DNA from: Sinohyriopsis cumingii
Lineage: Eukaryota; Mollusca; Bivalvia; Unionida; Unionidae
Length of the DNA stretch: 64,000 nt
Reading direction: 5' to 3'
NCBI GenBank assembly: GCA_028554795.2
Contig: CM068835.1
Coordinates: 55,609,719 to 55,673,718 of the forward strand
Part shown: piece after piece, positions 4,031 through 36,225 of the stretch
How positions within the stretch are numbered: the first letter of the stretch is position 1
Layout: each line of letters starts with the position of its first letter
Position numbers and translations under genes: made by a program
The notes under the pieces: generated by a model
Seen by the model: only the letters and a program-made list of their open reading frames with translations
Database searches by the model: none
Told to the model about the DNA's origin: nothing

Positions 4031-4129
4031 CAAAATCTGGAAAAAATGCACATTTGCCCGTAGTCAGTCTAAACTATATTCGAAAAGCAAATATGTATAT
4101 TTGTATGTGATATAAATAAAATATATGTA

Positions 4130-4250
4130 GAATTTGTACATTGTATCCATGATATACCACTCGTTGTTCAAGCATCGTTTCCTTTTAATGAAAATATTTA
4201 TACATTTCTTGGTATATCATTGATACAGCGTACATACTATACATAAATTC
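4130..4250. repeat. Inverted repeat, MITE-like
   Basis: The left arm 4130-4159 (gaatttgtacattgtatcca...) pairs with the right arm 4210-4250 (tggtatatcattgatacag...aaattc), with a few mismatches and a small bulge; the loop is about 50 bp. Present in copy 2 near 29618-29737. No coding capacity. Confidence 0.7.
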
Positions 4251-4485
4251 TGCTAATACACCGTTATTCTGGTCAGAAATACGTGTCTTTAAACTGTTTA
4301 TAAATAATCAAAATAAAATATGTGATAAAACACAACCTTGCCTTACCTCGGCTGGGCAGTTAAATATTTATATCAAGCTATTCTGCGCTTTCACACAATC
4401 TTTCATATTTGCATATATGGGTTTTGGTATAATAAGCATTTTATAACTATTTTCATTTACTAATTTATGATAAAGTGAGTTTCTG

Positions 4486-4513
4486 TCATGTCAATATGGA
4501 CAAACGCTTTTTG

Positions 4514-4548
<35 letters not shown>

Positions 4549-4818
4549 TATAATAATAATAACAGTATTTGGACTGTTCATCGAGCTTTCATAGTTGTAC
4601 ACTCCACTGTCGGTTGTACGAATGCACACACGACACTTATAAGGGTATTGTCCAAAAACAGTTTTTAAATCAACAGATGTCAACCCATCACACTTTGCAT
4701 GCATCCATCACTTGCACTTATCACAAATAAAGGAACCAACACAAAAATTAAGTCCACATACAGCAGAAGACCAGTTTGTTTTTGTTTGTTGTCTGTTTCG
4801 AGCAAAACCACTAGGCAT
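4486..4818 (-). pseudogene. Broken PHD-finger protein, copy 1
   Basis: Starting at the ATG at 4818, the frame begins MPSGFARNRQQTK and enters a Cys/His pattern that fits a PHD zinc finger: CGLNFC, then CDKC, then WMHAKC and finally CRVC, with an aromatic residue before the last pair. PHD fingers bind histone tails in nuclear proteins and also occur in some retroelement-encoded proteins. The frame is interrupted by an in-frame TGA (4708-4710) between CDKCK and WMHAKC, exactly inside the finger; the same TGA is in copy 2. The C-terminal part runs into the ATT microsatellite, read as poly-isoleucine, and ends KKRLSILT. A short or truncated gene is likely; no upstream exons found. Confidence 0.6.
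4514..4562. repeat. ATT/AAT trinucleotide microsatellite
   Basis: A run of AAT units with one interruption. On the minus strand it is in frame with the PHD-finger pseudogene and reads as poly-Ile. The copy 2 tract (29979-30042) is longer by about 15 bases. Confidence 0.95.
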
Positions 4819-5211
4819 TTTGGAATTTAAATATAATATGATTTTTGATAAATATAAACAAGAAATATAATCTAGAGAGATGTAAAAGATATACGATAAA
4901 ACTAAAATGGAGTAACTTTTGTGTTGATATACCAATATTACCATGTCTCCTATTATTAATAGGCATCATTTTGGCATGTTGCATGCTATTAATTGGTTAA
5001 TTATTCAAAGATATACAGGTGTTACATTTGGGTTTTCAAGTTAGGAATGATAATAATACTTTCTGTGATGACTACTGGTTCATATACAAGGAAATAGTTT
5101 TATAAAAGGCCGTTTAGCAGACAAAGAGGAATTTTTATTTTTTTTTATTTTTAAACATCCAATAATATTTTGTCCTGTTCTTTTAATTCTAGTTAAGAGA
5201 GCCGGATCGTG

Positions 5212-6535
5212 CAATATAACAGTTATAAAACAAACCACGTGATCTTAAATGGAAAACATGACAAAACAGATTCATGCAAATTCATCCACTCTGCTCCTAG
5301 TCCTTCGCAGTCCGATATGGATTTTAGCGTGTATGCAAGCATTCATTCGACACAGAATATGTTTGAATGGCCAAAGACCATCCTCTTACAGCTGGACACG
5401 GGTCGTCCCAAATATTTTCGATCCATAACATTTTGCTGTTGTTTGTCAACGCTGAATTTTACAGTGTGTCCAAATCCAAATAAATTATGTCTTTCTAAGG
5501 TTTCTTCAAAGATGATCTCACCATGAAATTTTCAATTTTCATTTTATGTTAAAAAGAACAACGGGAAAGCAATGTCCTGGAATGACTGACCCGAGCCAAA
5601 CAGATATGTGAACTCTGTATTTTTAATGTTAATATAGTATTCGCACAACTCCCGTTTGTTAGCCGATTTTGAAAACAAAAGGCACCAAAGTTATAAAAAT
5701 ATACACAACGTATTCGTTTCAGTCATCAATTTATCATTTCTAACTTGATTTTTGCGGGGTGGGTGGGTGGGCAACGCTTTCAACTTAGTGGCGTTTCGAA
5801 TGAAACGGGAGTTTCTTTCGTAACACGTTCGCCATATTTGCATGTCTCTGTTTTCGAGCAACAGATACCATGTAGTTCACCGACTTTGATAATCTCAATA
5901 AACCCGTAAATTTTGGATTTTCATCTCTTTGAACACATGTATACAAGCGTTCATTCTATTTTTATTTTTGTTCACTTTGTGTTAGAAATTTTAAATTATA
6001 CATTGCAAACATTGGACGAAGAAGACACAGCTTTTACTGAAATTGAATGTTCTAGACGCTTGATAAGGACAGTGTGCAGTACCGAGAACTTCCTTTTGGA
6101 TTGAAACGCCAATTATTTGACAACGTAATCCCCACCCCGCTACATCTGTTGGAAATTATAAATTGATAAATGAATATTTATCGTTTACAAATTAATTATT
6201 TTAGTTATATAAAAATATTTCAAAATCGAAATCGTTTTTTGTTGATTTTTCTTTTATTGTATAGCGCTGCACAAAATCTAAAATTATGTTAAATGCGGTC
6301 AAATTCTGCTATGCGTCGGGAGATATTTCAGGCATTGTGACATTCGTAGCTGGCAGGATGTTTAACTAATGAGTGTTATTTATGTTTCAGTTAGAGGTGG
6401 AAAAATATTATTGTTCTATGCCTGCAGTTTAGACTTTAACCATTTCAAGAGGCTACAATTGCATAAAAGCATCGCATAATACACTTTATCTTTACCCTTG
6501 CATTTCTTTCGTAAACAGTCTGCAAAGTGAGGTAC
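5212..6535 (-). pseudogene. Degraded minus-strand gene, unrecognised, copy 1
   Basis: Read leftward, several protein-like stretches lie close together in changing frames. The best is one frame from about 5680 to 5212: it includes NKRELCEYYINIK, then a TAA and a TGA near 5549-5535, then a clean stretch containing EIIFEETLERHNLFGFGHTV and MDRKYLGRPVSS, then a TGA near 5343. Further upstream are ETCKYGERVTKETP (near 5830), MPEISPDA (near 6330) and VPHFADCLRKKCKGKDK (near 6510). Amino-acid composition is far from AT-rich random translation and the main stretch is kept in copy 2 with a conservative change. I do not recognise the family. Either a decayed intronless gene or several exons. The opposite-strand frames at 5209-5526 and 5913-6104 look like its shadows. 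Confidence 0.5.
5756..5771 (+). promoter_or_regulatory. G-quadruplex motif
   Basis: GGGGTGGGTGGGTGGG: four G-tracts with single-T loops, a textbook parallel quadruplex pattern, in an otherwise AT-rich context. Conserved in copy 2 (31238-31253). Confidence 0.85.
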
Positions 6536-6562
6536 AGAATAACTGTGTAAAGATGAGTTTAT

Positions 6563-6588
6563 ATAATAATAATAATAATAATAATAAT
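6563..6588. repeat. AAT microsatellite
   Basis: Short AAT run; the copy 2 equivalent (32044-32093) is about twice as long. Confidence 0.95.
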
Positions 6589-7200
6589 CTGTATGATAAA
6601 ATGAGCTTCTCGAGACCTGAGTGTGGTTATTGAAAGTTGTCTCCCTTACACTTCCACTGAATGTTACATACTCGGGATTATTACTTTTGGCCGAAATTCC
6701 AAGAACATGAATCTGGAGATTTAATCACAATACAAAAAAAAAAAAAAAAAAAAAACAAAAAAAAAAAAAACATCCGACTGGTTGGAAATGGCGAATGAAG
6801 CGTGGATTGACATTACATAGTCTCTAAAATATGCATGTCAGCATATAATACTTATTAGCATACACAAAAACCAAACATGTAACTATTTGATTCTGCTCAG
6901 GACTGTAACTGTGACATTTTGAATCATTTGAACTGACTCTTGCGACATATGACAGGAATTTAGTTTTTCATCGGTATGTGTTAAATCTGTATCAATGGAA
7001 ATGTGAAAGCACACATGTTGGTTAAAAGGCTTTGTTGGCAAAATACCTTAAAGTGGGCGCAGCCAAACCAAATCATGTATTGACAGCGTGCTTCTGGTGC
7101 ACACCAATAACGCTGGCAAATTACGTGTCCTTACTTTACGGATTTAGGGTCTATTGACATGAAAATCGCTGAAAGACCGTCTGATTTTAAAATATATTCA
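6589..7200. other. Non-coding stretch left of the virus-like block
   Basis: Contains an A-rich tract (6734-6770) but no supported gene. The left breakpoint of the copy 2 deletion is at 7061-7063. I could not define the left end or terminal repeat of the virus-like block; its first recognisable coding signal is near 7230. Confidence 0.5.
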
Positions 7201-7234
7201 TCACCATAAAGCGGAACAATAACTAACAAAAAAA

Positions 7235-7830
7235 AAATAAGCTGAATTAATTGAAAAATGTAACGATATTGGTTTTGAAACGTACAGAAAAATCATCTAA
7301 TTTAAGTGAACTAGCTTCATTTGCAATCGTAGGTTTTGATAACAATACAATGTATTTAAATCCTGACTATCTTGAAAAACCTGTAAGTCGATCGCAATGG
7401 GAAAACTGGATATTTCATATAAAATTTTAAATCAAGAGCTTCCTATAATGATGTGACTTTTGTGATGTTTAATAATGAAGTAGAAAATCAGCAGGAACAT
7501 ATTTATATGACAATGACTCGGACACGAGGACAACTATCAAAACTTACTCCATTGAAACCTCACCCTTTAATTCTCTCACCAGAACCTGAAGTTTCTCAAC
7601 AAAAACAACCAATAACATTTCAACAGAAAGAAGAAGAGGAGAAAGAAGACGAACCAGAGCTAATTAATATCAAGAATAAATTTATTCCTGAAGGTATTAA
7701 TTTTTTGTATAAATTTAGTAGGGGAAGAATGGAAAATATTGCTACTACAGGAGATGAAATGGAAGAATTTGTAAAACCAGAATATATTGATGATTATAGA
7801 GCAAATCAAGAAAAATGGGCTAAGGATTGA
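7235..7830 (+). pseudogene. Virus-block gene 1, unrecognised, frame-broken
   Basis: The downstream part (7453-7830) is one open frame of 125 codons: a polar N-terminal half, a glutamate/lysine-rich centre (EEEEKEDEPE) and a C-terminal part with YKFSRGRMENIATTGDEMEE. Upstream, protein-like stretches in two other frames (AELIEKCNDIGFETYRK near 7243, then FDNNTMYLNPDYLEKP near 7340) show that the gene once began further left and has at least two frameshifts. The first ATG-like start of the open part is not in a convincing context. No family recognised. It is absent from copy 2 because of the 3,000-bp deletion. Confidence 0.45.
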
Positions 7831-7869
7831 TATTCTATATCTTCTAATAACATTTCAAGTGATGATGGC

Positions 7870-8270
7870 ATGAGTTTTGAGTTTTTTAAACAAAATATAA
7901 AAAGAAACAGAGAGAGAATATTGGCAGCAGATGAGAAATTAAAAAAAGACAAGAAAAATCAGCAAAACAAGCAAGTGCATTTAAACCTCCAGAAAATTGT
8001 GAAAAATGTGGCGATGACACACCTCTCTGTGCTACAGGAAGTGGTTTTTCTACCCAAGGAAGCAGTCTTATTACTTGTTCTGGCAGTGTTCTTACCGACG
8101 CAGATATATTAGAAGTTCTGATTGGAGGAAAACGTGCTGGAAATAATTCGTCTGAAATCATTAATGAAATATCTGATATTTGTCGAAGATTATTTACTGG
8201 CGGTATTATGGATCGCAACATTTATCGTTCTCTCATTGATGAAATCGCTGATGATTATCACAGCGACTAA
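7870..8270 (+). pseudogene. Virus-block gene 2, CxxC-containing, frameshifted
   Basis: The frame starting MSFEFFKQNIKRN is lysine-rich. It loses coding character after an A-rich run near 7945-7960, and the coding signal continues one frame over to the TAA at 8268-8270. The second part has PENCEKCGDDTPLC, a possible zinc-binding pair of cysteines, and an acidic helical C-terminus (DEIADDYHSD). Expected intact length is about 130 residues. Family not recognised; position before the capsid gene suggests a virion or assembly role. Missing from copy 2. Confidence 0.5.
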
Positions 8271-8301
8271 ACAATTAATTAATCAGTATGTAATTTAAAA
8301 A

Positions 8302-8625
8302 ATGATTGTACACAATGCAGAACGTGTATCTGTAATGGTCAGGGTAATAAACTCACGATTGCCAACTCACAAAGCGATTTACGGAGATGGACTCAGTGAT
8401 ACTGTTATGGCTTTTTTCTTCAGAAGGATGGCTCCGAAAGCAATACCGATTGCAAAACAATTAGGGATGAAAGCTATTGAGGTTATTCGTGATAAAGGTA
8501 TTAATGCTATTGGTAATCTTGCCGTTAAAGCGTTCTCGACAGTCAATGATAGACTAGCTCGATTAGTACGAATAAAACCACAACCAACAGTGAAAGTGGA
8601 CAGCCTGCAAATGGCAGTAAAATAA
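8302..8625 (+). CDS. Virus-block gene 3, small basic hydrophobic protein
   Basis: A single open frame of 107 codons, one of the few in the block without an obvious lesion. After a short N-terminal part, the sequence AIYGDGLSDTV leads into a hydrophobic, alanine-rich amphipathic region (AIPIAKQLGMKAIEVI, INAIGNLAVKA) and a basic tail with RLARLVRIKPQP. Small proteins of this kind near the capsid gene of Polinton-like elements are often minor virion components or membrane-active peptides; that role is inferred from composition and place only. ATG chosen as the first in frame; an internal ATG at 8332 is also possible. Absent from copy 2. Confidence 0.45.
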   Translation: MIVHNAERVSVMVRVINSRLPTHKAIYGDGLSDTVMAFFFRRMAPKAIPIAKQLGMKAIEVIRDKGINAIGNLAVKAFSTVNDRLARLVRIKPQPTVKVDSLQMAVK

Positions 8626-8713
8626 TAAATCAAGACGCAAATCAAAAACTATCAGAGTTGGCTGGTGAAGCACAAAAATATAACAGCAAGTTTAATAGCA
8701 GGAAGTGGTGTTC

Positions 8714-10127
8714 ATGTTAGACGATAACAATTATAATAAAATGTTCAAACGTGTATCCGATCCGGCGTTCGATATAGACGCACCAGTTCTCAGATGAATC
8801 TATACGTGATTATCAATTTTATTCTTACTACGCAAGACAACCAAATCAGCGTGGAAGAATCGAATTAAAAATTCAAGACAAAAGCAGATATCTTTTATCT
8901 GCTGAAGCATTTATTGAGGTAGAAGGTGAAGTTATGAAAGCAGATGATACTGAATACGCTGCTGATGTTAGAGTTGGTTTTGTCAACAACGGTATCATGG
9001 CGTTATTTGACAGTGCCACGTATATCATCGAAGGAAGAAATATTGAATCAATTCAGAAGGACGGTCATCTTGCCACGACGATAATAGGTCTAGCAAGATA
9101 TTCTGATGATTACACAAAATCAGCCTGCCCAAAAATGATGTTCTACAAAGACGGCGCTGACTTTCCTGACCACAGACCGTATAATATAAGATGATCAAGA
9201 AACTTTGCCGACAACGACGACGCTGATATATGGCTTGTATCTCATGGTGCTCATCAAGATTAGAACTTAGGATTTTTATCACGACGATCAGTGCTGAAAG
9301 ATGTTCGCAGAAGATTTTCACGCGCAATGCCACTGTCACATATTTTTGGATTTTGCAGAAATGTTAGAAAAGTTATCTTTGGAGCTAGACATACAGCTGC
9401 ACTTGTAAGAAAGGCTACTGATGGTGATACGATTTGGCGACCTGCTGGTGATGCTGGTAAAGTAATACTAACAAAACTTTCGTTGTGGATGCCAGTAAGG
9501 ACTCAAACGATTACCAAAGAACAAAAACTACTTTCTTTCATGGATTCAGGTGGTAAATCATTACTATCATGGTTGACCACAGACAGTGTTCAAGCTAGTG
9601 TAAATGGTTTATTTACATGGCACATAGTATCAAAGCAGGTTTTTTCCGCACCACGACATATATATGTTGCTTTTCAAGATTTTGCGCGAAAGATTCACAA
9701 ACACGTAGTCATATGATATTTGACAAACTTGGAGTTAATGAAGTTTCTTTACGGATAAAAGGACATCAAGAACCAGGTGAGGATATATAGTAAATTTTGA
9801 TCAAAATCATGTAGCTCGTGCATATCATCGTTTGATGACATTTTTGGGACGTGATCAAAACATAGACACAGGGTTGCAAATATCACAATTCGATTTTACG
9901 ATGCTGTATCCGATTTATTACTTTTCGCTGGAGCATCTTGATTTATCTAGACAATCTGTCGTTGATATTCACTTTCGAGCTCAAGTAACACAACCTCCTG
10001 TTGCTATAGTTGGTCCATTCTTGGTAGTTACAGAGCAATTGCAGTTATTCTTTCAGACAAAGCAGCGATGCTTGAAGGTGCTGGTGGAAGAATGCGAGTT
10101 ATTGACGCTGCAGTAGAAAACATGTAA
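8714..10127 (+). pseudogene. Double-jelly-roll major capsid-like protein, decayed
   Basis: From the ATG at 8714 to the TAA at 10125-10127, about 470 codons' worth of sequence shows capsid-like coding in shifting frames. Pieces: 8714-8798 (KRVSDPAFDIDAPVL, ends at TGA), about 8798-9194, 9291-9716 (PLSHIFGFC, GKVILTKLSLWMP, FTWHI, PRHIYVAFQ), 9832-10047 (TMLYPIYYFSLEHLDLS) and a last frame ending VIDAAVENM. This motif set is what I know from the large invertebrate family of double-jelly-roll capsid proteins of Polinton/adintovirus-like elements, often labelled F54H12.2-like in databases. The pieces lie in the expected order. At least four frame breaks. Copy 2 keeps only the last ~60 bases because of its deletion. 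Confidence 0.72.
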
Positions 10128-10234
10128 TTAAATCACTTATCCTATTATAAAAATATCGTACAGTCACGTTTGTGTCACTCTGACTTCCAGTCAGGTGAAA
10201 AAATCACAATCAAAACTCGCGAGTAGATGCGGAA

Positions 10235-10633
10235 CAAAAATATCACTAAAAAATATCAAATTCTAATGGTGAACCAAACAAATTATCATTAACCAAGACT
10301 CAACTTAAACATTGTAATAAGGCCTTAGAATCAAAAACTGGAGTTGAACTTCATCTTTCTCCGAGCGCTATTAAAGATATGGTTCAATTTGGTGGAATAT
10401 TTCCACCTCTTACAGCTATGCCAGCATTAATATCCGCAGCCGCACCTGCCGTTGCAAAAGCAGCCGCGTTAGGTGCTCTTGGAACCGCTGCTGGAATAGC
10501 ATTAAAGAAAGCAACAATACAAGGATATAAAAGAGGAAAGGGGTCAAAGATTATCGGGAAACCCTTATCGGTACGGGAAAGGTCTGAGACTTTCCAGGAA
10601 CACCTCGTTAATCCGTCCAATGTCAAATTTTGA
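10235..10633 (+). pseudogene. Ala-rich internal capsid peptide-like protein (pVI/pX type), copy 1
   Basis: An open stretch from about 10235; the first ATG in the well-formed part is at 10379. The upstream part reads KTGVELHLSPSAIKDMVQFG, followed by GGIFPPLTAMP, a run of alanine and glycine residues (positions about 18-45 after the ATG) and a basic segment GYKRGKGSKIIGKPLS. Composition and position immediately before the protease recall the small internal and membrane-lytic proteins of adenovirus-like viruses; this is analogy, not a domain match. Copy 2 has one extra A near 32794 that shifts the upstream frame, while the Ala-rich core is kept with two changes. Confidence 0.5.
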
Positions 10634-10685
10634 TTACTTGATGCTGCTAAAAAAATGAAATATAAACAAATTCAGAGGTGTTTTT

Positions 10686-11033
10686 ATGCGTGACCAATTA
10701 CCAAAACAACCAAACAATTTTGAAACAGGCATTATTAATCTTGATGATAATTTAGGGTCTGGTACTCATTGGGTGGCATACGCAATTGATCCACGTGGAA
10801 TCGTTTATTTCGATTCGTATGAGCTTCCTCCACCAGTTGATTTTTTAAAATAGATAAACAAAATAAAACCTCCAGTCTGGTATTCAACATTACCTACACA
10901 AACGCGAACTGGTCCACCTATATATGGTCGTGAAGTAATTAATGTACTTGACGCTATATCAAAGTCTTCCAATGTACCTCATAAAGCCGTGCATGATTAT
11001 AGAAGTAATCGCGTCGTTTTAAACAGATCTTAA
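10686..11033 (+). pseudogene. Adenain-like cysteine protease fragment, copy 1
   Basis: From the ATG at 10686 the frame reads MRDQLPKQPNNFETG, then GTHWVAYAID and YFDSYELPPP. A His in GTHW followed about 17 residues later by an acidic residue in YFDSY matches the first two catalytic positions of adenovirus-type proteases, which mature capsid precursors. The frame has an in-frame TAG at 10851-10853 shared with copy 2 and then continues to the TAA at 11031-11033. The expected downstream catalytic Cys region is not visible: the last part (YGREVINVLDAIS) has no cysteine. So the 3' half is either lost or a different gene fused by deletion. A short frame just upstream (RGVF before MRD) suggests the original start lay further 5'. 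Confidence 0.62.
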
Positions 11034-11038
11034 AGTAT

Positions 11039-11662
11039 AATGGTTGATATTTACGGAAGATCTTCTTCTATCAAGGGCAAGAAAAAAAAGATGATATTGA
11101 TTTGTCAAATTACGCGACTAAAGATGAACTTACTGATATTATGAACCTCTCTGGAGTTGACAGAGTTGAAGTTGTTATTTTTCAGGATAAATACGGTATT
11201 TTAAAGACGAGCTACATCAAATGGAATGATATAGTTCGTAGAGTTCTCGGTGGTACTACGGATAACATTCCAGTATTTACTGATGGCGGAAATATCAGAG
11301 ACTCAGATATATCATTCGCAACTATTAGAAATGAAATCACAAGGAGCGTTGCTAATCATTTGGGGAGCACCGGTGATACAATGACAGACGGACTCAGCAT
11401 GAACGGAAATAAGATAGTTGTTTAAAGAGATCCAACATCTGATGAAGCTGCCGCGACAAAAAACAAATATGTAGACACAGTAGATACTACATTATCCACG
11501 CTACAAACTGAGTATGACGTTCACGTACATATGTTTTTAAATACTCGTAGAAATTTTCAAAAACTCAATAAAATCGCAGATGATTTCTTTGGCACCCCGT
11601 TGACTATTGGCGTAAAACTCGTTGATATTAAGACAGCTATATCAGAAATTGAAACGATTTGA
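11039..11662 (+). pseudogene. Fibre-like protein, frame-broken, copy 1
   Basis: The ATG at 11039 opens MVDIYGRSSSIKGK, then an A8 run (11086-11093) shifts the frame. The main open part (11102-11425) begins LSNYATKDELTDI and ends in GDTMTDGLSMNGNKIVV followed by a TAA at 11423-11425. The GDTMTxGLxMNGNKI pattern is typical of fibre proteins in phages and Polinton/adintovirus-like elements, where it lies in the shaft before a trimeric attachment tip. Same-frame coding character continues past the stop (AAATKNKYVDTVDTTLS) to a TGA near 11660. The A-run is one base shorter in copy 2 (33586-33592), showing ongoing slippage. Confidence 0.65.
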
Positions 11663-11781
11663 AAAAAATAGAAGATGTCATAAATGGGATTCCTGAGATC
11701 GATAACAATAATTAATCTAATTAAAATCCCCCACGGGCAGATTACCAACATAGGATACACAGTATCATCAGGATTCTAAAC

Positions 11782-11948
11782 ATGGTCACAGCAAATATAA
11801 CGCTCAAATATACCGCAGAAGTCACTGGTGTGAATAGACTGCCTGTGTTCAGTGCTGCAAAATTTGAGATATTTACTACGTATCCCTGGCAGCATTCAAC
11901 CGATAAGTTTTCTGGAGTTGTGTCTATCATATTAAAGAAAGGCAACGA

Positions 11949-12028
<80 letters not shown>

Positions 12029-12114
12029 AAGCATCTGATAAAAAATTAACTGCAACGTCTTACTGGTGGTGTCTAGAATGTGTAGCTGAAACACCTCGAT
12101 TGGTTACTAAGTAA
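11782..12114 (+). pseudogene. Fibre tip or unknown virus-block frame split by a TA microsatellite, copy 1
   Basis: A frame of 110 codons starting [18 protein letters not shown] and ending [16 protein letters not shown]. Its centre is a pure TA tract (11951-12026) read in frame as Ile-Tyr repeats, so the frame happens to survive in this copy. The first 55 residues have beta-rich character ([20 protein letters not shown]). It follows the fibre-like gene directly and could be its C-terminal tip after a frameshift. In copy 2 the tract is 254 bp with interruptions and the two halves fall in different frames. Confidence 0.4.
11951..12026. repeat. TA microsatellite inside a virus-block frame
   Basis: A pure AT dinucleotide tract of 76 bp. 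The equivalent in copy 2 (34449-34702) is about 254 bp with GTAT and TAGA interruptions. Confidence 0.98.
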
Positions 12115-12120
12115 AATGTA

Positions 12121-12234
12121 ATGAGCACTTCAATCGACGTTCAGATATTTAGGTACAATCAAGCACGTGAATGGCAAACAAAATTTAAAGGTACCGTCGA
12201 AAAGTATACAATAAAAATAAAGAAATATCGTTGA
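12121..12234 (+). pseudogene. Short virus-block frame, N-terminal remnant
   Basis: A 37-codon frame beginning [18 protein letters not shown] and ending at TGA. It overlaps nothing and sits just before the long open frame 12325-13332. It may be a small gene or part of an upstream one cut off by mutation. Also present in copy 2 from 34798 with one Lys-to-Gln change. Confidence 0.35.
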
Positions 12235-12324
12235 CTTGTAGTTATTGTTGATATAATTGTTTAATCAGTTAAAGAAATCGCATTAGCGCAATTACTTGTA
12301 TATTATAGTTCGCCAAATATCTGA

Positions 12325-13512
12325 TCAAAATCATTTGGTGGATTACAGTCGAATAATTCACTTGTTTTTGCAAATAAAAGTAAAGATGATGGAACCCCCG
12401 ACTGGTTAGTTGTTTCTATTCCTACAGGAAGCTATCAGATCGAACAAGTCAATGATGAATTTCAACGGAGAATCAAATCAGCAACTGGAAGAGAAGCAAA
12501 AATAGCTATAATAGTCCACGAACCAACATTATCATCCGCGATAGAGATAAATTATCCAGATTACGTTGTATATATTTATCAGCCATCAATCAGATTTGTT
12601 TCAGGTTGGCCTGAAATGTTATCAGAATATCAGGGACCGCCAGAACCACCGCGATTTGATTTTAATACATACAAGAGAATATTTCTAAAATATCCAGAAT
12701 ATCGAAAAGACGAATCTCCATTAAACTCTGATCGTCAATATTTATATTATCCTAGTATGATCATCAAATCATCAGTACAAAGAGTTTATGCTGTTAATGA
12801 AGAAACATTCAAATCATTGGCTGACACAATTAAAAATGAACATAGAACTGCATATACATCATTAGTAAATTTATTAAAAGATTACATTCTGGAGTATCCT
12901 AATGACGATCTAATAAAGAAAATCATTGAAACAATACAACATTTAAATAACGTTATATTAGACCTTGACTATATTAATCAAAACAGTATTGAGATGATAT
13001 CATCTAAGGAACTTATTTCTTCTGAAGAAAGAATTGAAAAAATTAAAGAAATATTTCTTAATCGTTATAGATTAACTGAAGCTGAATTACCAACAATTGT
13101 AATGCCAGAATTTAAAACCTACGAACTAAAAAAATCATATAGAAAAATACCCCCCCCCCCAACTATTCTAAGACACAATAACAATCCGTACGGTGAAGGT
13201 CGTCATATTTCACTAGGAATCGTTAGTATAACCTCAGCGATTGCAGTCAATCTTGTATGTGACGTAATTGATGGCAGGTCTCAAATAGATGTTGAAAAAA
13301 CAAATCAGCCTCAACAAGGATATATTTTATAGAATTTTACTCCGCAAGTACCTCCTGGATATTTGATTGTATAAGAACCTATTAATCCTGTTTATTTACG
13401 ATGTCATAATCCGTTATTATCAAGAATACATTTCAAACTTACTGACCAGAGTGGACACTTAATTGACTTAAGAAATAAAAATCTGAATTTAAATCTGTAT
13501 GTTAAATCTTAA
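12325..13512 (+). pseudogene. Long virus-block gene, probable capsid companion, copy 1
   Basis: The frame is open from just after a TGA (12322-12324) to a TAG (13330-13332), 335 codons; the first ATG is at 12616. It reads on in the same frame past TAG and TAA (13372-13374) to a TAA at 13510-13512. Features in order: PTGSYQIEQVNDEFQRRI (beta-rich part), NYPDYVVYIYQPSIRFVSGW, a proline-rich junction EYQGPPEPPRFDF, a charged helical region of about 160 residues (KIIETIQHL, SSEERIEKIKEIF), a poly-Pro stretch coded by a C11 run, then HISLGIVSITSAIAV, and after the stop VPPGYLIV and FKLTDQSGHLIDLRN. The two ends resemble a protein I associate with Polinton-type clusters beside the capsid gene; the helical centre looks like extra sequence inside it. 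Function not established. Confidence 0.5.
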
Positions 13513-13547
13513 AGATTTTTACATTTATTCCAGAAGCATATTATATA

Positions 13548-13814
13548 ATGTACCAACATGTGAGGGTTTTTATACACGACAAGGCGGGGGTGGGGGTACT
13601 TGAAAACGCTATCAAAACAATAATGACACAGTCTCCAGTAAACACAGAACAATTTAGTGTTGACATAGTTATTGATGAATACGGTAACGAAGACTTTTTA
13701 GTGACGCAGGAACAATTAAATGAGCTCCGGCTAGAACTTGTTTCTATGATCACGTGTGAAAGAGATCAGATTCTAAATTATTTACATTCCTGCATTAAAC
13801 TCGATCAACTTTAA
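13548..13814 (+). CDS. Small virus-block frame, unrecognised, copy 1
   Basis: An open frame of 88 codons from an ATG at 13548 to TAA. It is acidic in the middle (IVIDEYGNEDFLVTQEQLNE) with a helical C-terminus ending in HSCIKLDQL. No lesion in this copy. In copy 2 a 2-bp deletion near 36304 breaks it. It faces the minus-strand frame 14345-13824 across the TA tract, so the two are convergent. Family unknown. Confidence 0.4.
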   Translation: MYQHVRVFIHDKAGVGVLENAIKTIMTQSPVNTEQFSVDIVIDEYGNEDFLVTQEQLNELRLELVSMITCERDQILNYLHSCIKLDQL

Positions 13815-13823
13815 AAATATTGT

Positions 13824-13842
13824 CTAGCTCTGAATAATTTGG

Positions 13843-13917
<75 letters not shown>

Positions 13918-14345
13918 ACATAATACCTTTTATACTGATTTTTGCTTATCACTCTCACTAGTGACGTTGTTACTACAATCACTGTTATTTTTAGAAGCGA
14001 GAGTGTTTCCCTTTTCAGTATCTGATATAATTTTTTCAGTTGTCTCTCGCATGTGTCTATAATCTTTTTTGTCTCGTATTCGTCAAATAATTTTGATCTA
14101 ATCATATCAATTGCGATAGAAAGAGGTACAAATGTATCTACTTCTTTATCTTTCACTGTTGATAAGGATTGTAGCATGATCTGCTGGATCGTTTTTATCA
14201 ATCGATATTCAGATGATAGTGTATATCCACCCTGAATTTTACGATTTTGTAATGATTCGAAATCAGAAATGATCTTTTCAGGATCAAGTTGAATATTTAT
14301 GCCATCTTTTTAATTTTTTTATTGCAGAAATAATAGCATTAATAT
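13824..14345 (-). pseudogene. Minus-strand helical virus-block gene, copy 1
   Basis: Read leftward, the open part starts after a TAA near 14310 and includes DPEKIISDFESLQNRKIQGG, then QQIMLQSLSTVKDKEV and ETKKIIDTCERQLKKLYQIL, ending with a hydrophobic segment and then the TA tract (13849-13913), which is read as Tyr-Ile repeats. Upstream, AIISAIKKLKRW in the neighbouring frame abuts it across an A-run, so a one-base slip has separated the N-terminus. Predicted mostly alpha-helical and charged; no family recognised. No ATG start is available in the main frame. Confidence 0.45.
13849..13913. repeat. TA microsatellite
   Basis: TA tract of about 65 bp in copy 1 and about 242 bp in copy 2 (36524-36765). 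It forms the 3' end of the minus-strand virus-block frame. Confidence 0.98.
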
Positions 14346-14404
14346 TTTTAAAGTTCAATTTATTATATATATTTTATATATTAAAATTATATTCCTTAAC
14401 CACA

Positions 14405-14430
14405 CGATATATTACATATGTAATATATCG
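14405..14430. repeat. Perfect 26-bp palindrome
   Basis: CGATATATTACAT followed directly by its reverse complement, with no loop. It sits between the end of the virus-like block and the heat-shock-type promoter. Identical in copy 2 (37257-37282). It could mark an element end or a dimeric factor site; unknown. Confidence 0.9.
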
Positions 14431-14566
14431 CAAACACAACATCTAGGCTACTGAATAAATATTTTACTCACCTCTGCTCTCTCTCGAATTCAGCTGCAGT
14501 CCGACGAGGAGGATAGAGAAATTCTGGCTTCTTTTTTAGTCAGTTATTTGGGGAAAACCCACAAGC

Positions 14567-14732
14567 TTCAAGAACCTTCTATGGAATCATTAGGTCGTTC
14601 TGGCAAAACCGTCTATCATCAACCCAGAACCTTCCAGAGAATCACAAGATCGAGCCACTTGGAACGTTCCAGACGTTACGGTTTTCCCCAAACTATTTGA
14701 CTATAAAAGACAGGGAATCGCTCTCTCTCTCA
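14567..14732 (+). promoter_or_regulatory. Heat-shock-type promoter: three HSEs plus TATA box, copy 1
   Basis: HSE 1 at 14567-14579 is TTCaaGAAccTTC, three perfect inverted 5-bp units. HSE 2 at 14627-14639 is GAAccTTCcaGAG, and HSE 3 at 14662-14674 is GAAcgTTCcaGAC, both with an imperfect third unit. TATAAAA lies at 14702-14708 and an initiator-like TCAATT at 14730-14735. Spacing (last HSE about 30 bp from TATA, start about 25-30 bp further) is what animal HSP70 promoters show, where trimeric heat-shock factor binds the HSEs. All three elements are intact in copy 2. The downstream gene is not a chaperone. Confidence 0.8.
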
Positions 14733-15138
14733 ATTAGTCTGGAAATTTATATTTTGAAGTGGACAGGAGGTAAGTAAAATATTGTCTTAAACCACGTGTA
14801 TTAATTGTTACGCAGATAGTTAAACGTACATGTACGCGTGACTTTCTGTCCTGATTTCGCTTGCAAGTTAGAAATCTAAATTATCCTTTAACTAACGTGT
14901 ACTCGTGACTTTCTGTCTTGATTTCTTTTGCAAGTTAGAAACCTAAATTATCCTTTTACTAATTTGAACTATTATACAATCATGTTACTTCACTGATATT
15001 AATTATGACACAGATAGGGTTAATTAATACCATGACAACATGAATTGTGATTGACGGACAATCATGTACTGCAAAATTATCTCCCTTCCCTAATGTCATT
15101 GACCTTATTTATTTATTTGTTTATTTATTTATTCGCAG
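14731..15138 (+). other. Noncoding first exon and 5'UTR-type intron behind the heat-shock promoter
   Basis: After the likely start at about 14731, a short leader ends at GGACAGGAG|GTAAGTAA (donor GT at 14770). A matching acceptor, a T-rich tract ending ATTCGCAG, lies at 15131-15138, giving a 369-bp intron of the same length in copy 2 (37622-37990). Such an intron in the 5'UTR is known from several invertebrate HSP70 genes. Exon 2 should start at 15139, but no HSP70 start or conserved N-terminus follows in any frame. Confidence 0.65.
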
Positions 15139-15149
15139 AAGTTGTTATT

Positions 15150-17011
15150 GAAAACTGAACAAGTGATACAAAGGTCACTCACAAAAGCTGCTTGAGCATA
15201 GCTAACCAAACATAAGTCGTGGATGTCAATGTGCACGAGATCAAGACACCAGCAAGCAACGGCTGCATCATTGCCTAACCATACGTATTTTGGATACTAA
15301 GATACATGATGTAATTGTTTTGAATAGCGGGTTCATACCGGTCTATGCTTGGTTTTTCGATGACATGCATTGAAATGCCGAAATCATGTGATCGTTCAAT
15401 AAACAGATGCATATCAATATCAGTTATCAATTTGGACAAAGTGGATCCCAAGCCATTTCTGGCGATGAAATGTACTTTGAAGGGTCTCTCTTAAACAAAT
15501 GCAATACGTTGTTTCGATATGCTTCAGACACATATACGATTGCATGTGCTGTTTTCTGCTCCTCTTTAAGATCGAGTGATGTGACGTTGAATGAGAATTT
15601 TGAAATCGGTTGAGTTAAAAGCATCATTAATCTTTCAGCTATTTGTGGCCATAAAGCTCATTAATATTGTCATGGTTCAAAATCATACCTGTGGGTAAAA
15701 AGATTTGTTTCCGAATCTATTTTGCTGTATCTCTGATAGATTTCAAAACATGTTAATAGAATCCTTACCACTATGTAATATTGGTGGTTCAGTTTACTGT
15801 CCCATCTTCGCATTTTCGCTGTACCTATGTTAACTTTAGAATATTTTACCATGTTCAGGCATAATCGTGCACTGAGACTTTTCGCTAATTCCACCGTTAT
15901 ATAAGTCATGCTGGTCAATCAGCAGTTGTGTTACGTGTTAAGCAAATGCGGGCAAAATTTGCATGGAAACGTTTTACCCTCGAGCTTGGTGTGTCGGTAA
16001 ACAACTGGTCAAGATTCTTCATCGATACATAATGAGATAGCGACTCTGGGCCAAGCATATATCTTAACAGATCCATCTGAGCACGCTTTGCACATACGGC
16101 GCGAGTGGAAGCTGGTACAATCTCTTATCACAAGTGAACACATTAACCTTGAATCAGGCGTTTCAAATTTTTTGATTGCGGCCCTGGAAACCTGCACTAT
16201 AAATTCTATATCACCGAGATTGACTTCATATAAGTATTAATGCTATCCACGCGGCTGGTCTGTGTTGTTACTAATGGTATTAAAGACATAGACCTTTACA
16301 GGTATTGCGTAATAATGCCATGGAATGTTTAAAATCTATAACGTTTAGTCTTTAATTACTTCAATCTCTCGTCTTTGTCTTATAGTATGCTTTATTAATG
16401 GTGATACAGATGTAAACATCTCAAACTCAACAGGACTTTGACAATATTTATAGTCACCATTAGCTACATTACACTTTTTCCTACCTGGAAAGGTAATTTT
16501 TAATCTTACATTAGGCTCTGCAAAATAAATAAGCATAGATTTCTCATGCGGGCCAAGTATATCAGATCCTAACGTTGACACAATCTCAACCAAGGTTGCT
16601 TTAATATCATCAGGAACTGTTTATTTTCCAGTGTGAGGTTCAAACCCAACTCGAAAAGTTCCATATACTTATTTGTATCCAATAGTCCTAACAATGGGTG
16701 AAACGTTTACAAATAATCCATAAATTCCATTCTTTTGCAACATATTTTCTTTAGTAAATTCTTCATGCAGTGGCAAACTGTTTTTCTTCTAGTTCGTGGT
16801 ATTTGTTTTCGCTATTCTTGTCATCATCTTTAACTATTATATTAATGCCGAGAGCATTTCTCTAATTACCCTACCCTTGGCGATCTTCACTACTTAGGCT
16901 ACTATAGTCACTTGTTGTTTCATCCTCCTCACTGCAGTATGGACGTGTTTCGTTACCTGTTTTTAACGTATGCGCCTTTATAATTTCTAATACGATATTA
17001 TGTAAAGCCAT
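15150..17011 (-). pseudogene. Degraded minus-strand gene, about 600 codons, unrecognised, copy 1
   Basis: It begins at an ATG at 17011 (MALHNIVLEIIKAHTLKTGN), has an acidic/serine stretch CSEEDETTSDYSSLSSEDRQ, then a TAG with continuation in another frame. Further coding-like pieces in order: NMLQKNGIYGLFVNVSPIVR (near 16740), 16593-16345 (ILGPHEKSMLIYFAEPNV, GRKKCNVANGDYKYCQ), 16240-16009 (SRAAIKKFETPDSRLMCS, MCKACSDGSV), 15918-15670, 15627-15427 (NVTSLDLKEEQKTAHAIVY) and about 15480-15300 (GLGSTLSKLITDIDM). At least five frame breaks, no clear splice sites, so probably a single-exon gene that has decayed. Cysteine pairs suggest a zinc-binding site. I recognise no family. It points toward the heat-shock promoter and overlaps its exon 2 in antisense. 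Confidence 0.5.
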
Positions 17012-17683
17012 TTAAGATTTTCCGTGCTAATATTGGCTAAGATGTTCTGGTTCCTAGTACAAGACAATTCTTAAGTTTATGTGTTCGAGAAGTGATATAA
17101 CTACTTTTGAGCCTGTTTAATAAATCTTGCAAGCATTGTAGAATAAAGAATTCCTGGGTCACAGCACATATCCTCTATCACTGTTGTTTGAAGAGAAATC
17201 TGGGAGGAAGCTAGGAGAACTTGAGTAAGCAGAAAAATACAGGGAGATTAACAGCAGGATTAAAAAAAGTTAAAGAACTCAAAGGGAGACTTGGTTAGAG
17301 GACTAAAGTAAGGGAGTCGAGAAACGCCTGAACCAAAACAAGGGTAGATATACATAAAGGTTGGTGTAAGACCTGACAACAAAGATACTAGCTGACCCTA
17401 AATGAACACGATCCCACTCAGACAAGCAATATGCACACCACAATTATCATCTTGAAAAATCGTGTTATCTCTGCTTCTCCTAAAAGGATAGTCACATTAA
17501 CGTTAGGTATCTCGAAATAACTTCTTATGATGTCTAGGTGATACTAAAATAAATTGGGGCTGATCTGAGATTCATTATGGCCTACATGGCAACCATGTTG
17601 TAAAACTTGTTATTACTGTTCCACCTAAAGGAAAACTTTTATAGACAAGGCCCTTTCAGTAGAAGTTTTCTTATGAAGTCTAG
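17012..17683. other. Intergenic stretch, no supported gene
   Basis: No frame of interest on either strand apart from short fragments. Contains A-rich segments near 17220-17290. Confidence 0.5.
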
Positions 17684-17917
17684 TTGGGCAGAATGAGATC
17701 TGGACTCCAGTATGGCTGCAATTCTGTCCGGTTTAGCAGGCTTCTTATCGTTACTCCCATGATGGATGTTTATATTGATATGGCTCTTCACCGAAAGAAA
17801 TGTGATGTTCATTTTGTCCTAAATAATCGCGGTGTCAGTTTCACATCTTGTTGTCATTGTGGTCATCTTGACAATCTAGTATTTATTAAGAATATCAGAG
17901 ACGGCTTCAACACCTAG
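17684..17917 (+). other. Hypothetical small frame, identical in copies 1 and 2
   Basis: A 77-codon frame containing MDVYIDMALHRKKCDVHF and SCCHCGHLDNLVFIKNI; the translation is identical in copy 2 (40536-40769). The +1 frame of the same DNA also reads as three hydrophobic segments (ILSGLAGFLSLLP, MFILIWLF, HLVVIVVILTI) interrupted by TGA, TAA and TAG, so one of the two is the real remnant. I cannot decide which; no family recognised. Confidence 0.3.
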
Positions 17918-18589
17918 CAGATACAGTTTAAATGTCTTGGATTTCTACACTTTGGAAAATACACATATGGCATAAAGAAGCTATTTAAGCTTAAGCACGA
18001 TTAAACAGTTAGAGGTATATATAAAACAAAATATACAAAAGTTGCAGTTAGGTCTTTATCGGAACATGTTATTATTCATAAATATAATCAATCTTATTGA
18101 TTACAAATTCCACAAAACAAATAAACAAAAGCTGCACATCCATCATTCTGTATTAGAAATCACATATTTAAAATATTTTGATAATTACAATACTACCTCG
18201 TTAAAAATAGTTACCTTAATAAAATATTTTATTTTTGTTGCAATATGCCCCCAAAAGGAGAACATTCCAATAACCTATCCCTCTGCTCTATAAATCATTT
18301 TATAACATTTCTGAAACAGCATCCATGCCGAATCTATAATTTGCGGGAATTATATTTTTAAATAATTTTTAATACAAATAATGTTTTATTTGTAGATCAT
18401 ATATTGGTATTATTACGATATATTCTTAGGCAATTGTCTATATTAAACTTTTATTAAAAAAGAAACAATCTAGTACTTATCATAATGTTTGAAACAAATA
18501 TTATATTCGTCTATTTGATTTGAACATAATTTTCAGTTATATAGAAGTACCAAACAGGGATGTATGTCTAAAATGGTAGCACCCTGAAG
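17918..18589. other. AT-rich non-coding stretch
   Basis: No supported gene; the open frame at 18042-18293 is AT-rich and its end shifts in copy 2 through a T-run length change near 41080. Confidence 0.5.
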
Positions 18590-21500
18590 AATTATGAGTG
18601 GCGGCAGATCCAATGAAAATTTAAATTATTCAAGGGAATCACAACATTTTGAAATATGTTTATTTACAAATTTATTGGTTTTATAAATTTCATAAACCTT
18701 CGCAAAACGTGTGAGAAAAACGCCAAAGCACAAAATGGAATGAAGCAACATGAATAAATCTTAAATACGTATAAGAGGTTAGCAACACTAATTAGATTAT
18801 ATCGTACAATTACATTATAATTCAGCATCAGAACCATTAAAACTGATGTTTTGTATGTAAACTATATATAATCATCTATTTGTTATGATATATTAGAAAC
18901 AAAATAAACATTTGATGTACTGCATCATTTACAGTAACAGCAAGACAAACTGAGAGCAACACTTTGGTATTAAACCAGAAGTTTAGAAGTAGGTCATGAG
19001 ACAAAATCGGTTCGTACAGACACTATTGAATAGTCAGGGCATCCTACATTCGAGACGTGAAATAGCAATGTAGCATATTATGCCATATGGCGACAGTTTG
19101 AATTGTTCGATATTGCTGCTTTAGCTCAACCTGGAAAAGCTTTGCCATATGGGCAGGAAAATTATTTAATAAAACATCGGTTGGACTAAATCAAATGCAG
19201 TGGTAGTACTATTGACAACTGGAAGCATTCACGAGAAGAACGATAATTTGAAGTGTGTTTTAGGACATATTGCCCTTAAGAATTAGATATAGCACGGGGA
19301 AAAGTAGGGAATATTACATCAAAACACAAAATGGAATGGAAAAAAGGAATAAATCTTAAATACATATTAATAGGTTTAAAACACTAATTAGATCCTATTG
19401 TGTATGAATAATTCAGTATGAAACCCTTAAAACGTATGTTCTTTACGTCAACTATATATTATCATCTATTTGTTGTGATAAATTGCAAACTAAAGAATTA
19501 TATCATGCAATGCATAATTCGGAGGCAAGATCGTGCATTATTTACATCAGACTATTTTATTTTTATTCAATAACAACATATATGTTAGCTTCATTTGTAT
19601 TTCAGTTGTGTAGTGATCGGGTAAAGAGGGACCAATTTCTATTGAATACTATATTACAAATCTAGTGGGACTGTTAATAACAATTTGGATGAAAATGATT
19701 TTGTACTAGACATGTTACTCAGCTAACTTTTGAAGCAAATCCAGACAGAGCCCCAGCTGGCAACTATACTATTATTAGGAATCTATGACACAAACACATA
19801 CGATACATAAAACTATAATTCGTCAGTACAAATTAGAGTATCATCAGATACTGAGTTTCCTGTACAAGCTGTGTCTTGTAGCTATCAGAATTCCAGACGA
19901 ATGACGGCACATGTAACAACAAGACAAAATGGAAACAACCCTCGAGTTTAAGACCAACACTTGGAAGCAGTTAATGAGACAACATCTATTGGCACAGAGA
20001 ATATTAAAATTCAAGCATTCTACATTTGAGAAGTGGAATAGCCATGTAGCATCTTACGCTATATGGCGACAGTTTGAATTGTTCGATATTGCTGCTTTAG
20101 CTCAACCTAGAAAAGGATTGGGCAAGAAAATTATTTAAAAAAACATCGGTTGGACTAAATCAAACGCAGTGGTAGTACTATTGATAATTGGAAGCATTCA
20201 CGGGAAGAACGATATTTTAAAGTACGTTTATGGACATATTGCCTTTAAGAACTTGATATAGCACGGGGAAAAGTAGGACATATTACAGCAAACCACAAAA
20301 TGGAACGGAAAATAGGAATAAATCTTAAATACATATTTAGAGGTTGAAAGCACTAATTAGATCCTATCGTACATGAATAATTTAGTATGAAACCCTTAAA
20401 ACGTATGTTCTTGATGTCAACTATATATTATCATCTGTTTGTTGTGATGGATTATAAGCTAAAGAATTATATCATGCAATGCATAATTCAGGGGCAAGGT
20501 CGTGCATTATTTACATCAGACAATTTAATTTTTTTCAATAACAACATATATGTTAGCTTCATTTGTATTTCAGTTGTGTAATGATTGGGAAAAGAGGAAC
20601 CATTTTCTATCGAATACTATATTGAGAATCTGGAGGGACTGTTAATAACAATATGGATGAAAATGATTTTGTACTAGAAATGTTACTCAGCTAACCTCCG
20701 AAGCGAATCCAGACAGAGCCCCAGCTGGCGACTATAATATTATTAGCAATCTATGACCCAAACACATACGATACATAAAACTATAATTCGTCAGTACAAA
20801 TTAGAGCATCATCAGATAATGAGTTTACTGTACAAGCTGTGTCTTGTAGCTATCAGAATTCCAGACGAATGACGGCACATGTAACAACAAGACAAAATGG
20901 AAACAACCCTCGAGTTTAAGACCAACATTTGGAAGCAGTTAATGAGACAACATCTATTGGCACAGAGAATATTAAAATTCAAGACATTCTACATTTGAGA
21001 AGTGGAATAGCCATGTAGCATCTTACGCTATATGGCGACAGTTTGAATTGTTCGATATTGCTGCTTTAGCTCAACCTAGAAAAGGATTGGGTAAGAAAAT
21101 TATTTAAAAAAACATCGGTTGGACTAAATCAAACGCAGAGGCAGATCTATTGTTACATCGAAGCATTCTCAAGAAGAATGCCATTTTGAAGTGTATTTAT
21201 GGACATACTGCGTTTAAGAATTTCGTATACCATTGGGAAAAAGTAGGGAATATTACAGCAAAACACAAAATGGAATGAAACAATATGAATATTTCTGAAA
21301 TACACATGTATAGGTTAACAACAGTAATTAGCTTCTATTGTACAATTGCATGCAAAAATCAGTATGAAACCCTTAACACTGTTGTTATTTATGTCAGCTA
21401 TACATAATCCTCTATTTGTTGTGATAGACAGATTTCAAACAAAAGAATGATATCATTTACTGTGTCATTCACAGGCAAAGTTATGTATTATTTGCATCAG

Positions 21501-22130
21501 ACTATTTTATTTTTATTTAATAACAACATATATATTAGCTTCATTTGTATCTCAGTTGTGTAACGAACGGGTTAAAATTGGATCGTTTTATATTGAATAC
21601 TATATTGAGAATCTGGAGGGCCTGTTTATGACAATATGGCTGAAAGTGACTTTATACATAAAAATGTCACCCAGCTTACCTTCGAAGCAAACCCAGACAC
21701 ATCGCCAGCTCACAAATGTAATATTGAGAAGCAGGAGGGCTTATTTATGACAGTATGGATGAAAATAATAACCAGCTAACCTACGAAGCAAACACAGACA
21801 CAGTCCCAGCCCCCAACTGTAATATTGATAGAAATATATAGCACTAACAGATATATCAAACAAGAATTAGTACAAATTGGAGTATCATCACATACTGAGA
21901 CTCATGTACAAGCCGTGTTTTGTACCTATCGGAAGTCCAGACGGTACATGTAACAACAAGACAAAATGAGAGCAGCCACCGTATATTAAGTCAGCATTTG
22001 GGAGCATGTAATGAGACAATGTCAGTTCGTACAGAGAATATTGAATGCTCAAGACATCCTGCATATGACGACGGTTTGAATTGTTCGATATTTCAGCTTT
22101 AGCTCAACTTGGATTGAACAAAAATGGTAA
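18590..22130. repeat. Tandem array of ~970-bp repeats, about 3.6 copies, copy 1
   Basis: Landmark 'gacagtttgaattgttcgat' occurs at 19092, 20068, 21037 and, as 'gacggtttg...', 22070; landmark 'agtatgaaaccc' at 19412, 20385 and 21359 with a diverged form at 18823. Spacing is 969-976 bp for the inner units. The first unit lacks about 385 bp between landmarks and the last is more diverged and about 60 bp longer. Open frames inside (for example 19929-20138 with MRQHLLAQRILKF and WRQFELFDIAALAQ) are short and not shared across all repeats, so they are probably not genes. Confidence 0.88.
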
Positions 22131-32094: not shown

Positions 32095-32877
32095 CTGTAT
32101 GATAAAATGAGCTTCTCGAGACCTGAGTGTGGTTATTGAAAGTTGTCTCCCTTACACTTCCACTGAATGTTACATACTCGGGATTATTACTTTTGGCCGA
32201 AATTCCAAGAACATGAATCTGGAGATTTAATCACAATACAAAAAAAAAAAACAAAAAAAAACAAAAAACATCCGACTGGTTGGAAATGGCGAATGAAGCG
32301 TGGATTGACATTACATAGTCTCTAAAATATGCATGTCAGCATATAATACTTATTAGCATACACAAAAACCAAACATGTAACTATTTGATTCTGCTCAGGA
32401 CTGTAACTGTGACATTTTGAATCATTTGAACTGACTCTTGCGACATATGACAGGAATTTAGTTTTTCATCGGTATGTGTTAAATCTGTATCAATGGAAAT
32501 GTGAAAGCACACATGTTGGTTAAAAGGCTTTGTTGGCAAAATACCTTAAAGTGGGCGCAGCAGCGTTGCTTGAAGGTGCTGGTGGAAGAATGCGAGTTAT
32601 TGACGCTGCAGTAGAAAACATGTAATTAAATCACTTATCCTATTATAAAACTATCGTACAGTCACGTTTGTGTCACTCTGACTTCCAGTCAGGTGAAAAA
32701 ATCACAATCAAAACTCGCGAGTAGATGCGGAACAAAAATATCACTAAAAAATATCAAATTCTAATGGTGAACCAAACAAATTATCATTAACCAAAGACTC
32801 AACTTAAACATTGTAATAAGGCCTTAGAATCAAAAACTGGAGTTGAACTTCATCTTTCTCCGAGCGCTATTAAAGAT

Positions 32878-33132
32878 ATGGTTCAATTTGGTGGAATATT
32901 TCCACCTCTTACAGCTATGCCAGCATTAATATCCGCAGCCGCACCTGCCGTTGCAAAAGCAGCCGCGTTAGGTGCTCTTGGAACCGCTGCTGGAATAGCA
33001 TTAAAGAAAGCAACAAGACAAGGATATAAAAAAGGAAAGGGGTCAAAGATTATCGGGAAACCCTTATCGGTACGGGAAAGGTCTGAGACTTTCCAGGAAC
33101 ACCTCGTTAATCCGTCCAATGTCAAATTTTGA
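32878..33132 (+). pseudogene. Ala-rich internal capsid peptide-like protein, copy 2
   Basis: The 84-codon core matches copy 1 except Ile-to-Arg and Arg-to-Lys changes (KKATRQGYKKGKG). An extra A near 32794 breaks the upstream frame that is open in copy 1. Confidence 0.5.
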
Positions 33133-33184
33133 TTACTTGATGCTGCTAAAAAAATGAAATATAAACAAATTCAGAGGTGTTTTT

Positions 33185-33532
33185 ATGCGTGACCAATTAC
33201 CAAAACAACCAAACAATTTTGAAACAGGCATTATTAATCTTGATGATAATTTAGGGTCTGGTACTCATTGGGTGGCATACGTAATTGATCCACGTGGAAT
33301 CGTTTATTTCGATTCGTATGGGCTTCCTCCACCAGTTGATTTTTTAAAATAGATAAACACAATAAAACCTCCAGTCTGGTATTCAACATTACCTACACAA
33401 ACGCGAACTGGTCCACCTATATATGGTCGTGAAGTAATTAATGTACTTGACGCTATATCAAAGTCTTCCAATGTACCTCATAAAGCCGTGCATGATTATA
33501 GAAGTAATCGCGTCGTTTTAAACAGATCTTAA
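33185..33532 (+). pseudogene. Adenain-like protease fragment, copy 2
   Basis: Same frame and the same in-frame TAG (33350-33352) as copy 1. It has YFDSYGLPPP where copy 1 has YFDSYELPPP, and VAYVID for VAYAID. No catalytic Cys region seen. Confidence 0.6.
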
Positions 33533-33538
33533 AGTATA

Positions 33539-34160
33539 ATGGTTGATATTTACGGAAGATCTTCTTCTATCAAGGGCAAGAAAAAAAGATGATATTGATT
33601 TGTCAAATTACGCGACTAAAGATGAACTTACTGATATTATGAACCTCTCTGGAGTTGACAGAGTTGAAGTTGTTATTTTTCAGGATAAATACGGTATTTT
33701 AAAGACGAGCTACATCAAATGGAATGATATAGTTCGTAGAGTTCTCGGTGGTACTACGGATAACATTCCAGTATTTACTGATGGCGGAAATATCAGAGAC
33801 TCAGATATATCATTCGCAACTACTAGAAATGAAATCACAAGGAGCGTTGCTAATCATTTGCGGAGCACCGGTGATACAATGACAGACGGACACAGCATGA
33901 ACGGAAATAAGATAGTTGTTTAAAGAGATCCAACATCTGATGAAGCTGCCGCGACAAAAAACAAATATGTAGACACAGTAGATACTACATTATCCACGTT
34001 ACGAACTGAGTATGACGTTCACGTAAATATGTTTTTAAATACTCGTAGAAATTTTAAAAAACTCAATAAAATCGCAGATGATTTCTTTGGCACCCCGTTG
34101 ACTATTGGCGTAAAACTCGTTGATATTAAGACAACTATATCAGAAATTGAAACGATTTGA
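33539..34160 (+). pseudogene. Fibre-like protein, copy 2
   Basis: Main open part 33543-33923 with the same stop; the A-run is A7 instead of A8. Changes include GDTMTDGHSMNGNK for copy 1 GDTMTDGLSMNGNK. Confidence 0.63.
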
Positions 34161-34279: not shown

Positions 34280-34791
<512 letters not shown>

Positions 34792-36190: not shown

Positions 36191-36225
36191 AGATATTTAC
36201 ATTTATTCCAGAAGCATATTATATA

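Follow-up and report, generated by a model that had tools for sequence, protein, structure and literature searches.

A decayed virion gene block in a unionid mussel

We analyzed a stretch of 64,000 nucleotides from the unionid mussel Sinohyriopsis cumingii (GCA_028554795.2, contig CM068835.1, positions 55,609,719 to 55,673,718 of the forward strand; hereafter, the window), in which a run of short open reading frames (ORFs) at ~7.25–13.8 kb of the plus strand forms one compact gene block. This block is very probably the decayed, endogenous virion module of a Polinton/adintovirus-type animal virus, inert today in the mussel genome. Two of its genes, encoding the major capsid protein and a penton-like protein (12325–13329), were firmly recognized as homologues by sequence comparison, and chance is excluded for both because of the E-values of their homologues (best 6.4e-53 and 2.9e-90, respectively). 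A sequence-only reading had proposed endogenized Polinton/adintovirus-like virion genes at this place, and our analysis bears this out with a firm capsid, a penton-like gene of moderate confidence, a core-peptide-like neighbour and a weak protease. Its description of the cluster as capsid, internal peptide, protease and fibre stood for the first two members and weakly for the third, and was not confirmed for the fibre. The penton-like gene at ~12.3–13.5 kb is an addition, as it had not been named before. The genes that carry this interpretation are as follows:

8299–8622, plus strand: putative small basic internal/core-peptide-like gene, directly upstream of the capsid gene
8742–10127, plus strand: pseudogene of the major capsid protein (double jelly roll); pieces 8778–9191, 9264–9713, 9781–10113 and 9966–10127
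10659–10850, plus strand: possible part of an adenain-like cysteine protease
12325–13512, plus strand: gene for a penton-like minor capsid protein, carrying a long insert; the frame is open over 12325–13329 (335 codons) and stops before the conserved C-terminus

Capsid, core-peptide-like and protease genes

Alignment revealed that the capsid pieces 8778–9191, 9264–9713 and 9781–10113 are collinear with capsid homologues. The C-terminal residues are found in another frame (ORF 9966–10127), with an ending that resembles homologue P0058, and the start at 8742 was taken from the sequence by its resemblance to P0016. The gene contains frame changes and two in-frame stops within 8778–9713. When compared with the capsid family PF21738, piece 9264–9713 scored above the cut-off (E 5.5e-9; 36.1 bits, cut-off 27), with no match for 8778–9191 and 9781–10113, i.e., one of the three pieces scanned was detected. 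With the first piece as query, 23 of 27 candidates were homologues, including the best one cited above, and a capsid profile search identified 126 homologues among 7994 scored proteins. PF21738 itself was matched by 25 of 30 aligned capsid family members at E 0.001, and it is also present in Hydra and Watersipora proteins. The capsid-like gene of the earlier reading is hence well founded. Comparison of the capsid and penton profiles with solved structures, by sequence, yielded no relative; none was found when bacterial and archaeal genomes were searched with the capsid alignment, and viral contigs searched with capsid, penton-like, protease and 10250–10630 queries gave no confirmed relative.

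The product of 8299–8622, previously described as internal-peptide-like, matches the N-terminal part of the Potamilus streckersoni protein P0044 with 65% identity over 86 residues, in agreement with that description. P0044 is a predicted protein composed of a core-peptide-like part followed by capsid; since it joins the two, this gene neighbourhood is common to one further mussel genome.

An adenain-like protease is weakly supported, being partly visible at 10659–10850. This piece matched PF00770 below the cut-off (E 0.0045; 17.1 bits, cut-off 21.3) and the African swine fever virus S273R protease (PDB 6lj9) weakly (E 0.0023). It contains the His-containing GTHW segment, and a pattern search at 10000–11700 did not find the protease cysteine box. 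The searches, run with the absence of a capsid or protease match as the possible counter-evidence, thus recovered the capsid and a weak protease match, and the proposed structural cluster was not refuted.

Penton-like gene

The penton-like gene retrieved 15 homologues among 1400 candidates. We identified its probable role from the predicted fold of a short homologue, P0006. The model of P0006 was of low confidence, and its fold matches were led by viral pentons, with low TM-scores and middling Z-scores. Four viral fold matches were below 0.001, two of which are MELD virus proteins: rank 1 (E 1.2e-5) and rank 3 (E 2.9e-4), the latter named a putative penton. In a comparison of P0006 with 596 PDB chains, adenovirus chains, either penton-derived or from the capsid, took 14 of the top 16 places, and entries for the mavirus penton followed at ranks 21 and 24. 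At the sequence level, the window gene matched neither adenovirus nor mavirus pentons. A second homologue, P0005, which carries the insert, gave a low-confidence model with no viral fold match below 0.001. On the strength of the P0006 fold, we regard 12325–13512 with moderate confidence as penton-like. The insert differs among relatives; for the pentons of adintoviruses and MELD viruses, one report describes variable inserts in the DE loop (PMC11071296).

Tandem duplication and decay of the block

Self-comparison indicated that the window is a tandem array with a unit of ~25 kb, consisting of copy A (1–25491), copy B (25492–48386) and a partial third copy (48387–52260) that repeats the first 4 kb of the window. 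In an ungapped comparison, the similarity of the third copy to the others is ~99% in the initial 1 kb and ~94–98% beyond it; BLAST identities including gaps are 89–92%. Self-comparison and alignment placed the second copy of the block as follows:

32559–37260, plus strand: copy B of the block, without the equivalent of 7063–10061

The 3 kb missing from copy B contain the core-peptide-like gene and almost the entire capsid gene, and the five bases GCAGC occur at both ends of the deletion. In the part of the block that A and B have in common, 48 of 4337 aligned columns differ (1.1%). No listed difference falls at the stops at 10851, 11423 and 13330; these are common to both copies, which indicates that this decay predates the duplication. 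In copy B, the penton-like frame additionally contains an indel. Judging by their sequence, the genes of the block are pseudogenes from which no product would be expected. The tandem copies constitute a small record of decay: stops common to both, divergence that came later, and a capsid gene that one copy has lost. Recombination between flanking repeats may have been the route of the duplication.

The high similarity of A and B (98–100% in 500-base bins) could also reflect two haplotypes misassembled in tandem. We consider an assembly artefact, or contamination, very improbable: the same flanks surround the block in both copies, yet the copies differ by the 3 kb deletion and in microsatellite length, and relatives are present in annotated mussel genomes. 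The AT microsatellites of the block, at 11951–12026 and 13843–13917 in A and at 34449–34702 and 36519–36769 in B, are more than three times longer in B.

A penton-like frame with 335 open codons in copy A, within a block that has been duplicated, is what might be expected of capsid genes domesticated by the host and kept for a function, e.g., against related viruses. However, the capsid, protease and penton-like genes are all interrupted, copy B has lost nearly all of its capsid gene and has a disrupted penton-like frame, and non-synonymous changes outnumber synonymous ones by 8 to 2 among the 10 penton-like codons that differ between A and B (of 274 examined). Domestication is scarcely credible on this evidence, and a decayed viral module accounts for the block far better.

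Replication genes and terminal repeats

The sequence-only reading had not recognized a replication module nearby, and our scans agree with it: no polymerase, integrase or packaging ATPase family match was detected among the ORFs scanned. We selected 104 ORFs of at least 60 codons in 1–25491 and 48387–64000, after low-complexity ORFs had been dropped; the Pfam scan covered 102 of them, leaving out 11725–12111 and 11745–12059. All 83 shorter ORFs (34–59 codons) selected at 4048–7450 and 14250–18700 were scanned as well. One family scan of the longer ORFs listed 25 of 28 families. The motif search, like the ORF scans, covered the window outside copy B. The detection of one in three longer capsid pieces by family scans is a rough gauge of their power, and replication genes could be hidden by heavy or old decay. 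A Walker-A pattern at 3092 and a loose polymerase pattern at 61792, both on the minus strand, were rejected as far from the block, and a DesK_N match on one short ORF (E 0.0014) was dismissed as chance. A search for terminal inverted repeats within 1–26000, with microsatellites masked, revealed no pair with E < 0.1 joining the flanks at 4–7.4 kb and 14–18.7 kb. The earlier alternative of a defective element with virion genes only is supported at this locus, with its genes broken and no replication genes or terminal repeats recognized.

Two versions of the viral origin were considered. According to the first, a complete Polinton or adintovirus integrated and subsequently lost its replication half, either by deletion or by decay past recognition; we give this about an even chance. 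In vertebrate Mavericks, as described in PMC8097293, two modules occupy opposite strands and each points toward the centre, and the plus-strand block studied here abuts a convergent minus-strand ORF (13827–14309). This ORF is the one hint of an opposite module, with family matches below cut-off only. Deletions do occur at the locus, as copy B demonstrates, and Mavericks were reported in all mollusc genomes analyzed in PMC10294476. The scans and the repeat search described above weigh against complete integration. According to the second version, which we consider possible and the less likely of the two, a partial viral genome was integrated, its virion-gene fragment being captured during DNA repair. 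The compactness of the block and the failure to recognize terminal repeats or replication genes nearby fit such a capture, but decay and rearrangement could yield the same picture.

Just past the block, at 15278–16620 on the minus strand, a run of coding-looking short frames was noted in a stretch of higher GC content. Minus-strand pieces at 15.3–16.7 kb were tried as replication remnants and gave no family match.

Relatives and known systems

Among the 15 penton-like homologues, three are named by organism and all are unionid (one Potamilus, two Sinanodonta). For the capsid, 120 of the 126 homologues were listed, 11 of them with organism names: seven Sinanodonta, two Potamilus, one Watersipora and one Hydra. 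The Potamilus streckersoni proteins P0002, P0044 and P0048, together with P0010, P0011, P0021, P0023, P0025, P0062 and others from Sinanodonta woodiana, are unannotated mussel homologues of the capsid or penton-like protein. Capsid phylogeny was assessed with a tree of 32 selected rows, rooted at the midpoint, in which the window row fills 34% of the columns. The window piece belongs to a 10-row clade (support 100/99) whose one named row is Sinanodonta; this clade is nested in a 15-row clade (100/100), separate from the rows of Hydra and Watersipora. Inside the clade, the exact position of the window piece is weak (89/77). The suggestion of a new lineage in the earlier reading survives only in this form, as a 10-row capsid clade apart from Hydra and Watersipora in the 32-row tree.

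Based on this separate clade, one can envisage a virus class in which these virion genes were paired with replication genes of another type than those of Polintons (polymerase and integrase). Freshwater mussels would then host, or once have hosted, a distinct lineage of viruses in which the capsid and a penton with a large, variable insert are passed on as a virion module that lacks both Polinton enzymes. The loci would in that case be remnants of a DNA virus, chimeric or dependent on a helper, whose replication follows an uncharacterized route. Both the class and the mussel lineage appear unlikely to us: no alternative replication gene was recognized, and the lack of a gene at a single decayed locus carries little evidential weight.

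In Polintons/Mavericks (PMC8097293), capsid, minor capsid and protease genes are grouped on one strand, as are the capsid gene, the penton-like gene and the possible protease piece of the window; in contrast to the order given there, with the minor capsid before the major capsid and protease, the penton-like gene of the window follows the protease piece. The window also differs from these elements in that terminal repeats, polymerase, integrase and ATPase were not recognized. Adintoviruses and MELD viruses (PMC11071296) have a hexon-type capsid, a penton and an adenain-like protease, to which the capsid, penton-like and possible protease genes of the window would correspond, and fold matches to MELD virus proteins were obtained; their OTU-type PolB and chromodomain integrase were not recognized at the locus. 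The same paper defines adintoviruses by a hexon reciprocally recognizable by BLASTP with reference adintoviruses. The tests run do not assign a full Polinton or adintovirus label, although by sequence the virion genes would work like those of that group.

Since Mavericks have already been reported across mollusc genomes (PMC10294476), the window locus adds a member to a known group; Maverick copies are also tabulated in a Mercenaria genome paper (PMC8905726). A survey of titles and abstracts, with thin coverage of subscription journals, found no description of these virion genes in unionids. The locus shows that virion genes of viruses of the Polinton/adintovirus type are present in unionid-type mussel genomes, their capsid clade being separate from the sampled cnidarian and bryozoan ones.

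Proposed roles and history

Family likeness suggests how a working relative would use these genes: the capsid faces would consist of the double-jelly-roll protein and the vertices of the penton-like protein, maturation of the particle would depend on the adenain-like protease, and the small basic protein would lie inside with the DNA. The history of the locus may have begun with integration of viral DNA. Decay and then tandem duplication of the ~25 kb surroundings would have followed, an order suggested by the common stops and the 1.1% divergence; finally, copy B lost the 3 kb with the capsid gene, with GCAGC at both ends of the deletion.

Other features of the block

The earlier reading had counted uncharacterized genes in the cluster, and the following pieces indeed remain without assignment:

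7423–7827, plus strand: acidic ORF piece, open for 135 codons, of a gene possibly starting upstream near 7251; no match in Pfam or PHROGs
7935–8267, plus strand: ORF piece; no Pfam match and one PHROGs match at chance level (E 0.24)
10250–10630, plus strand: ORF with an Ala-rich hydrophobic stretch, perhaps pX/pVI-like; Pfam and PHROGs matches at chance level only
11725–12111, plus strand: ORF interrupted by the AT microsatellite at 11951–12026; no PHROGs match for the 11725–11943 part
13506–13811, plus strand: ORF of 102 codons; Pfam matches below cut-off only
13827–14309, minus strand: convergent ORF, one end of which is an AT microsatellite; Pfam matches below cut-off only

A ParM_N match on 13506–13811 (E 0.0014) was rejected as chance.

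The supposed fibre gene corresponds to two ORF pieces with weak matches only:

11048–11659, plus strand: pieces 11048–11422 and 11426–11659, earlier called fibre-like

A fibre identity was not confirmed, the best PDB match being a metalloprotease (E 0.11), with a phage tail fibre at E 0.57 and a phage tape measure protein at E 0.09. An L-PSP match on 11426–11659 (E 0.0027) was likewise attributed to chance, such short or below-cut-off matches, including ParM_N and DesK_N, being set aside. Outside the block, direct repeats of satellite-like type (period ~969 bases, 3–4 copies) occupy 18603–22113 and, in copy B, 41454–44934.

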